DNA of 64,000 nt from Mitosporidium daphniae. Its lineage: Eukaryota > Microsporidia. Under the pieces are notes generated by a model. That model was given only the letters and a program-made list of their open reading frames with translations. It did no database searches and was not told the origin of the DNA. Position 1 is the first letter of the stretch. The number at the start of each line of letters is the position of its first letter. Positions 50,238 through 52,402 of this stretch are shown here, piece by piece. The DNA lies in NCBI RefSeq assembly GCF_000760515.2, contig NW_013546400.1, positions 37,559 through 101,558 of the forward strand, written 5' to 3'. The translations under genes were made by a program, and so were the position numbers.

Positions 50238-52402
50238 TTATTTTTCGCCGCCAAAAATCAGCCGCCCAAGTGCCGCACGGAGAATCACTAAGCGTGTGGC
50301 GTAGGGCTCCTTAGCCGCCATTTTCTTCAGCGGTAGCACGGTAAAGCCACCAGAAGGTAATGCAGACCCGCCGTCGAGAATTCCAATCAACAATCCCTCG
50401 TTCATAAGCAACAGGGAGAGCTTATCTTGAAAGACGACCTGAATATTCCGTGTGCTGAGCCGAAAAAGCAAAATCCCATCAACAGCAGCGTATTTTACTA
50501 AAAACTCCATTTGCCCAGAGCCCGCAGAAGATGGAGTACTCCCTTGCTTGCGAAGAGCAACATTCTCAAACGTGCTTTGAAAGTACCTAAGCACTGTCAT
50601 TTTCTTTGACAGTTCGCCTGGAAAATCAGGTACTGTGAATTCGAGCTTAACAAACTGTTTTTTTGGTGAGGTATTCTCTTGGTAGAGATACTCAAAACGA
50701 CTATAAGTGAGAGGTAAGCAGTGGTTACCCAGATTTAGGATCTAGGATCATCATGGTGGCATCGTTAAAATATGCCCCCACATTGCCATCAGAACAGATA
50801 TAGCCGAGTCCATATTTTGAAGAGTAGTCAAAAAAATCGACAATGAAAAACTCATTCCCCTGCTGCGCTATTGATAATCATCATTATGATTGAAAAGCTT
50901 ACATGGCGCAGTATGTTCCAGGGCCTCCAGGCTCTCCGCTGTCGAGATTACTCTACAAATATTGTGGTAAATAGACTCGATCAGTCCGAGTCTCCTCTCA
51001 ACGACAGGTAAAACTCCGCCGAGGACAAGGCCCTTTTCAGTATTGCCCGGGTGTCCCTTCTCTGCACCTATGGGATTGAATGTAGCTTTAGGACTAGGAG
51101 TAGTATGTTCTAGCATGTGGATGTTAGTATGGGCAGGAATATTTTCTTTGGATCCCTCTTTGAAGGTGCGCATCGGCCTTGGCGAAGTTTCTGTGGCCAA
51201 AGTATTCTGTAATTGTGTTTCAATGCTTTGCAGAATGAACATCCGAGATGAGGCCAGATCGTCATAAGAGGGATCCTTGATGATGACTTGGTTGAAAAAC
51301 GAATGTTGAATCAACTCTTTGACTTTCGGCCGCTTATCTATCGGTAAAAAGCGGTGGATATCACCTGGATCTGTAGTCAGCATCAGTGAAATCAATGAGC
51401 ATGCTGCAGTCGAGACACCCGTATTTTGGGGAAACGTATACGCATTCTCCTTGATATTTCTGCACAATAAATTGGATTGTTTCCCACCTGTAGATACTTT
51501 TCACCTCTTCCGACTGGAAAGGAGGCCGTCCAAAGAGCAGTGTATACCTATACGATGATTGGGACATTCATACATGATCACCCCCAGTGCCCAAACATCA
51601 ACCTCCACGCTATGGCCTCGCACCTTATCGAAGAGTATTTCTGGAGCAATGTAGTTTGGCGTACCACAAATGGTCCTATCATAAGCGCTGCTTAGGAAAA
51701 CTTTTTGCGGTCTGTGAGCTGGTCGAGCGTGGTAGCAAGACCAAAGTCTCCAACTTTGATTTCGTTTTCAAGGTTGAGGAACAAATTTCCCAGCTTCAGA
51801 TCTCTATGGATAATCCGACGCGAATGGAGATAATCCAAAGCTGCAAGTATCATCCAAACGTACTGTTGCACCTCGTTTTCAGAGAGGGTCTTGCGGATCC
51901 GCAACAAATCAACCATTGTCTATAAACGTCAGTAAATGGCCCATTGACATACCTATTGTGGGATTAGCATGTGGGTTGATACCTACACTCAGAACGGTTA
52001 GGGGTTTACCTTATTTTCGCATAATTCCATCAGCAGGTAGATGTAGCGCTCATCGTGAAAAACTCTATAAAGCTTGACAATGTGTCGATGGTCGAGTAAT
52101 TGGTGAATTTCAATCTCATTGAGCAGCTGAAATTACGACGCAGTTTGTACCTATTTGTAAGAACAGCCAATCGTGCCTTGCTTTGCGCTTTGAGCTTGAC
52201 CACAGAATCCAGGAAAATGGCCTTCAATGCTAGTCGCTTTCCGGAAAGCTCGTCGATGACCTCGAAACACTTTGCAAATCCGCCCTTTATGATGATTGTG
52301 ATTGGATGCACATACCTCTCCCAATTTCTTGCCAAGCTTAAAGGTAAAGCCGTGGTGGACAATTACATGAGGCGGGTCAGGAAAGTTCCGATCTGCCTTC
52401 AT
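50238..52402 (-). CDS. PLK1: Polo-like kinase (Cdc5/Plo1/PLK1 type), ten exons
   Basis: Mitotic serine/threonine kinase. Exons: 52316-52402, 52165-52284, 52010-52126, 51702-51919, 51574-51675, 51488-51547, 51365-51459, 50903-51337, 50729-50867, 50238-50700; 611 residues (human 603), frame closed throughout. Kinase: [70 protein letters not shown]. Polo box 1: [32 protein letters not shown]; polo box 2 near 490-600. Introns: 31, 38, 90, 26, 26, 28, 27, 35, 28 nt; the 90-nt one (51920-52009) is three back-to-back GT..AG units. Polo-box residues W414, H538 and K540 of human PLK1 align with Phe, Lys and Ser. Confidence 0.95.

Follow-up and report, generated by a model that had tools for sequence, protein, structure and literature searches.

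Mitosporidium daphniae, a microscopic water-flea parasite placed in the Microsporidia, infects Daphnia (PMC7017984). Its polo-like kinase gene is interrupted by 90 nt, which raises the question of whether the spliceosome meets one intron there or several. The stretch of DNA analysed, which we call the window, comprises 64,000 nt (bases 37,559-101,558) of a 101,558-base contig from an assembly of 4.66 Mb. The initial annotation had proposed that the interruption consists of complete short introns with zero-length exons between them, or else that it is one intron made from fused units. Our analysis supports the core reading of complete introns, and the arrangement recurs elsewhere in the genome. 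From the sequence, we consider it probable that the 90 nt comprise three complete ultrashort introns, set head to tail and removed unit by unit. In the literature covered here, work on splicing through zero-length exons concentrates on long metazoan introns and links the process to intron length and exon definition. If the multi-unit arrays of 24-38 nt units described below are spliced in this manner, zero-length-exon splicing would need neither long introns nor exon definition.

The interruption in the polo-like kinase gene

The interruption divides exactly into units of 27, 30 and 33 nt that abut with zero bases between them (Table 1). The coordinates and lengths, the GTA and TAG ends of the units and both TAG/GTA junctions given in the initial annotation were all exact on recheck, and retention of any single unit indeed brings a stop codon into frame. 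The unit sizes are ordinary for this genome, as had been claimed, since the 468 single introns of our sample have a median of 28 nt and a 1st-99th percentile range of 22-38 nt. The branch-point-like motifs CTAAC, CTAAT and CTGAC are present as well, although they add little, the branch signal of this genome being weak. Of the 468 single introns, 12.4% contain CTRAY, compared with 6.8% of shuffled interiors; among the 22 units of the firm arrays defined below, four contain it, three of those four in polo. YTRAY, a weak motif genome-wide, is found in 9/22 firm units, 33% of single introns and 21% of shuffled interiors.

The 90 nt must leave the polo mRNA, as the alignment with PLK2 is gapless across ELCENK/TMVDLL. 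The M. daphniae protein at NCBI joins the same residues, whatever the splicing path. These outer ends would also be joined if the 90 nt were one intron excised at once, its internal TAG/GTA sites being relics of its assembly that the spliceosome ignores; we weigh this alternative below. Coding micro-exons are refuted for polo by the stops in all three units and by the absence of residues from PLK2 at this position. In 20,000 simulations for each junction type, random intron-like 90-nt sequences fell into three units at AG/GT with P about 7.5e-4, and at TAG/GTA with P about 5e-5.

The best protein match to the gene is the M. daphniae Cdc5/polo protein, with 92% over the full query, albeit the query used for this match and for the PLK alignment carried five wrong residues (VLTNR) from a mis-spliced neighbouring 38-nt intron. 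The gene finder described below calls seven introns in addition to the array. Judging from the NCBI protein, this model lacks at least one further intron, a short one at DPDKRPKV that the NCBI protein removes. The gene and the NCBI protein agree over the 249 residues compared, bar one place, where the NCBI model has another exon joining and skips one exon. The 38-nt intron itself contains an internal TAG/GTA 14 nt from its start; the frame is kept only by excision of all 38 nt, and the exon after it is the one skipped in the NCBI protein. The Rfam search of window positions 51400-52500 returned zero families at the gathering threshold.

Table 1. Features of the polo-like kinase locus, intron arrays and related elements in M. 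daphniae. Plain positions refer to the window; those with a contig handle lie elsewhere in the assembly. Array structures are written as preceding residues/unit lengths (nt)/following residues.
Feature	Position	Strand	Structure	Basis or remark
Polo-like kinase gene, predicted coding span	50238..52402	-		protein search, gene finder, PLK alignment
Upstream coding exon	52010..52126	-	ends ...MELCENK	gene finder and gapless PLK alignment
Polo array, whole	51920..52009	-	27+30+33	
Polo array unit 1	51983..52009	-	27 nt, GTAAAC...GTGTAG	sequence; in-frame stop if retained
Polo array unit 2	51953..51982	-	30 nt, GTATCA...AATAG	sequence; in-frame stop if retained
Polo array unit 3	51920..51952	-	33 nt, GTATGT...TATAG	sequence; in-frame stop if retained
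Downstream coding exon	51702..51919	-	begins TMVDLL...	gene finder and gapless PLK alignment
Polo 38-nt intron	52127..52164	-	38 nt	
CHMP2/Vps2 array unit 1	57604..57629	+	26 nt, GTTAGA...CCAG	gene finder; gapless CHMP2A alignment
CHMP2/Vps2 array unit 2	57630..57660	+	31 nt, GTGAGT...GCAG	gene finder; gapless CHMP2A alignment
SF3B1 single intron	30403..30490	+	88 nt	
RAD51 single intron (in L005)	G000:C81:33190-33301	-	112 nt	
TPI array			ESDE/27+26+24/LVCAKT, 3 units	gapless alignment
WDR82 array			YILIS/26+34+37+32/GRTHHF, 4 units	split codon restored across array
RPN10 array			SHDRN/36+29+38/SNLVSVPP, 3 units	gapless alignment
CDK1 array			LENDDE/36+27+33/GLPCTS, 3 units	gapless alignment
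Mitochondrial carrier array			AVE/32+28/GARGFF, 2 units	Pfam coverage only (85 residues, 87 profile positions)
C136 gene array, probable			30+27+25	no Pfam match
Mis18-like gene array, probable			27+27+30+27	Pfam Yippee-Mis18
Short tandem repeat	G000:C50:10178-10283		20 nt repeat	with TAGGTA or TAGGT
Short tandem repeat	G000:C100:10199-10239		about 12 nt repeat	with TAGGTA or TAGGT

Arrays in the sampled loci and across the genome

We analysed the window together with 24 further loci (L002-L025), 301,558 b in all or 6.5% of the assembly, with a custom gene finder that combines a coding Markov model with splice-site matrices and whose first version disallowed adjacent introns. With an ultrashort length model it predicted 243 genes and 498 introns, 475 of them of 20-42 nt and 23 longer than 45 nt; the 468 single short introns start with GTA in 74% and end with TAG in 81% of cases. 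Permitting zero-length exons yielded four junctions in the sample, two in polo and one each in CHMP2/Vps2 and SAR1. As a control, forced gaps of 1-12 nt in place of zero gave 0-2 junctions per gap, and the two junctions at gap 4 were the CHMP2 and SAR1 sites re-read.

The initial annotation had pointed to a search for long introns with internal AG/GT at unit spacing, and in our sample such introns were in excess. When tandems were forbidden, the 301,558 b contained 26 interruptions longer than 42 nt, three of which (polo, CHMP2 and SAR1) divide fully into units of 20-42 nt at AG/GT, against 0.10 expected among intron-like random sequences of the same lengths (Markov simulations; Poisson P 1.7e-4). 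Some of the 26, among those listed, look in our judgement like gene-model artefacts, the removal of which only lowers the expectation. The low-information GTA...TAG sites could in principle split an ordinary long intron by chance, and two-unit splits alone are not rare (P about 0.02 each). We nevertheless regard chance as very improbable in view of the excess over expectation, the three- and four-unit arrays in TPI, RPN10, WDR82 and CDK1, and an excess across the genome that is specific to intron spacing.

This last excess was seen with pairs of TAGGTA 14-34 nt apart, which gave 15 matches genome-wide, five of them in one 20-nt tandem repeat (C50). The ten non-repeat matches lie at eight loci and compare with 1.4 expected in the 21 spacings (P 1.7e-6); control spacings of 120-150 and 200-230 nt gave two matches each in 31 spacings each, and one control match has an end inside the WDR82 array. 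Seven contexts were read in addition to polo, and six of the eight loci are arrays in coding sequence (polo, TPI, WDR82, RPN10, the C136 gene and a Mis18-like gene). The TAGGTA loci on C78 and C53 are not arrays. The reversed pattern showed no peak at intron spacing (48 matches in 21 spacings; 67 and 78 in 31), while its level was higher in the TAGGT-based searches: 48 vs 15 for the true TAGGTA pairs at intron spacing and 67 vs 2 and 78 vs 2 at the control spacings, and, for the weaker junction patterns, 73 vs 16 and 471 vs 28, with 432 vs 17 at control spacing. Depletion in coding sequence is expected for TAG but not for ATGGAT, which would make the reversed control unfair in level; spacing controls were therefore used instead.

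Junction pairs with a non-A base after the first GT showed a mild spacing excess, with 28 matches against 17 in the control (P 0.009), or 25 vs 17 (P 0.04) when two repeat matches and one at C78 were set aside. The arrays in CDK1 and the mitochondrial carrier were found through such weaker junction patterns. The nine contexts of weaker-pattern matches comprised these two arrays, two single introns (L034, L035), four loci with no array (L036, L038, L039, L040) and the ambiguous L041; the 44 matches divide into 12 within contexts read, 2 in the 301 kb without a called array and 30 uninspected. All arrays beyond the 301 kb were found via intact junctions, a procedure that misses decayed ones, so the counts give no true frequency. 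The short tandem repeats with TAGGTA or TAGGT on C50 and C100 show no tie to introns, judging from the letters of the matches.

At least eight conserved housekeeping genes of M. daphniae contain arrays of two to four units: polo, CHMP2, SAR1, TPI, WDR82, RPN10, CDK1 and the mitochondrial carrier. We call these eight arrays firm. They hold 22 units of 24-38 nt and span 53-129 nt each, and at all 14 internal junctions the acceptor AG is directly followed by the donor GT. In six genes (TPI, RPN10, SAR1, polo, CDK1 and CHMP2) the proteins align over the array with no gap, and in WDR82 the alignment shows an indel of one residue a short way downstream of the array. By homology, then, the firm arrays must be lost from the mRNA over their full length. 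The arrays in the C136 gene and the Mis18-like gene are classed as probable. We discarded another double in the C136 gene (31+35), because the frame that the finder gives the next exon conflicts with it.

Complete arrays were called by the gene finder in polo, CHMP2, SAR1, the C136 gene and the carrier, the last two being the only ones among seven later contexts. For TPI, WDR82, RPN10, CDK1 and the Mis18-like gene, the full array was read from the frames and then checked by homology. In these five the finder was wrong or partial: it made RPN10 a single 103-nt intron, turned TPI unit 2 into a 26-nt exon, stopped after unit 1 in WDR82, and retained the third unit of CDK1 and the two middle units of the Mis18-like gene as coding. 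Arrays are therefore undercounted and the gene models contain errors; annotation that allows for a single intron at each site may likewise be misled in this lineage. The retained units also bear on whether some middle units are coding micro-exons, since the third CDK1 unit is stop-free and the 57 nt of the Mis18-like middle units form an open frame. However, excision of all four units gives a Pfam Yippee-Mis18 score of 83.8 bits, compared with 77.7 bits when the 57 nt stay in, and CDK5 aligns gaplessly with CDK1 when all three units are removed. We find the micro-exon explanation scarcely credible.

The units as introns and the route of their removal

The unit statistics cover 31 units in 11 candidate arrays, of which 22 are firm, 7 probable and 2 belong to the C136 double that was later dropped. 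They were scored with matrices derived from short introns, 7/22 firm units (those of polo, CHMP2 and SAR1) being themselves among the training introns. The 31 units reached a mean percentile of 0.41 of the 468 single introns, whereas only 0.8% of 396 random GT..AG segments reached the median score of the units. Array units are thus intron-like, albeit with scores a little below those of average introns (KS P 0.013) and lengths a little above (mean 29.8 vs 28.0 nt; MWU P 0.016).

Retained tiny introns are apparently policed by translation-dependent quality control in M. daphniae, because stop-free frames are depleted among single introns whose length is a multiple of three: 40/143 lack an in-frame stop, compared with 53.5% of the other 325 when these are read alike (Fisher P 2.5e-7). 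In Paramecium, retained tiny introns are likewise policed by translation. If the units are spliced singly, each unit of 3n length should therefore carry its own stop. Such a stop is present in 8/9 of the 3n units of the firm arrays (P 0.012 vs 46.5%), or in 5/6 without polo (P 0.08), which modestly favours unit-wise removal.

We propose that each unit would be paired and excised singly by intron definition. The internal AG/GT junction would serve as the 3' splice site of one unit and the 5' splice site of the next, and excision of either neighbour first would regenerate a usable site, so that the order would be irrelevant and exon definition unnecessary. If so, the arrays offer a compact natural substrate for testing the order of splice-site pairing.

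The main competitor of this proposal is the one-step removal of the polo interruption introduced above. Removal of about 90 nt in one step is possible in this organism, given an 88-nt intron in SF3B1 and a 112-nt intron in RAD51; both are genuine single introns, lie in matching homologous context and have no internal AG/GT (Table 1). Relics ignored by the spliceosome would be expected to erode, yet every one of the 14 internal junctions in the firm arrays is an intact AG/GT at unit spacing, a count to be read with the caveat that five of the eight arrays were themselves discovered through intact junctions. Moreover, the units score like working introns, and the stops of the 3n units stand in the frame that is relevant to retention of one unit alone. 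One-step removal thus appears unlikely to us, although it is far less improbable than chance or micro-exons, and we favour removal unit by unit.

Relation to known systems and origin of the arrays

Juxtaposed AG/GT is known from the zero-nucleotide ratchet points of Drosophila Ubx and kuz and of some vertebrate introns, which leave no exon bases in the mRNA (PMC8605326). As in ratchet points, the AG/GT of the arrays would be the 3' splice site of one step and the 5' splice site of the next. Ratchet points are predominantly a feature of long introns, and those that are intronic reportedly require a cryptic RS-exon (PMC8605326), whereas the arrays of 53-129 nt have the next unit beginning at the junction and leave no obvious room for an RS-exon. 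In the stwintrons of fungi, too, two or more complete U2 introns are combined and excised in successive reactions (PMC7138796), and the arrays resemble them as complex interruptions of several complete introns. However, stwintrons are nested, the internal intron interrupting the donor, branch or acceptor of the external one, while the units of the arrays abut acceptor to donor with all GT and AG ends complete.

Distinct from stwintrons is the category of "abutting U2 introns", a separate named type for which two papers on recursive splicing are cited (PMC6616335). The array units agree with this type in having zero exon bases between them and in their donors, acceptors and lengths, which are typical of introns of the species, albeit slightly weaker. 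In human genes, dual-specific AGGT can act as a 5' or a 3' splice site, with a tandem series in UBC (PMC10809524); the UBC segments between the sites are ubiquitin-coding and kept in variable number, whereas the M. daphniae units are non-coding and must go. A test of recursive splicing in yeast is cited in the reference list of PMC5126111. A lariat study reported recursive splicing across a range of human intron lengths, conventional lariats being preferred below 1,000 nt (PMC10156609). Terms for adjacency or recursion were not found in the available text of PMC5639578. Our searches for Mitosporidium introns or splicing and for microsporidian recursive splicing, which covered few subscription papers, returned no title or opening of an abstract in which such arrays are described. 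If the unit-wise reading is correct, the M. daphniae arrays are a natural case in which recursive splicing dispenses with exon definition and the total length stays below 130 nt; our literature searches returned no other example.

The arrays also bear on the question of how new introns originate. Duplication of one intron in tandem would be compatible with unit-wise splicing and has a precedent in Cryptococcus introns, proposed to come from tandem repeat expansion (PMC2395259). Those introns are near-identical repeats, and introners, through which many introns were gained (PMC9860276), are copies of one element; the M. daphniae units are unlike each other. Among the 11 candidate arrays, similarity was no higher within arrays than between them (31 vs 434 pairs; Mann-Whitney P 0.40), a comparison that old, decayed duplications would escape. 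The suggestion in the initial annotation of one intron from fused units is accordingly weakened as a story of duplication, which we regard as improbable.

The exon ends in AG before seven of the eight firm arrays but before only 155/468 single introns (P 0.0025). Of all AG/GT sites in the predicted genes, about 21% are existing donors (155 donors and 570 exonic sites). Unlike units together with a preceding AG fit the insertion of new introns at the AG/GT of an existing 5' splice site. A new intron that inserts at an AG/GT already edging an intron would add a unit and leave the protein unchanged, and such insertion may have been repeated with unrelated sequences, possibly by reverse splicing. 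Unrelated introns stacked at one AG/GT would thus speak for insertion at splice sites, whether by reverse splicing or through the targeting of proto-splice sites, and against duplication, and the arrays, if this is true, are a readable record of intron gain. As a tentative general picture, which we hold at somewhat short of even confidence, M. daphniae gains introns at AG/GT sites that are often already splice sites, and a spliceosome adapted to introns of 22-38 nt cuts the resulting stacks of two to four unit-wise.

As a separate observation, the SAR1 pair has donors similar to GTTAGA and GTGAGT, the donors of the CHMP2/Vps2 pair. The pattern AGGTTAGN{10,32}AGGTGAGT occurs genome-wide at the CHMP2/Vps2 and SAR1 pairs only, with 0 matches in the controls.
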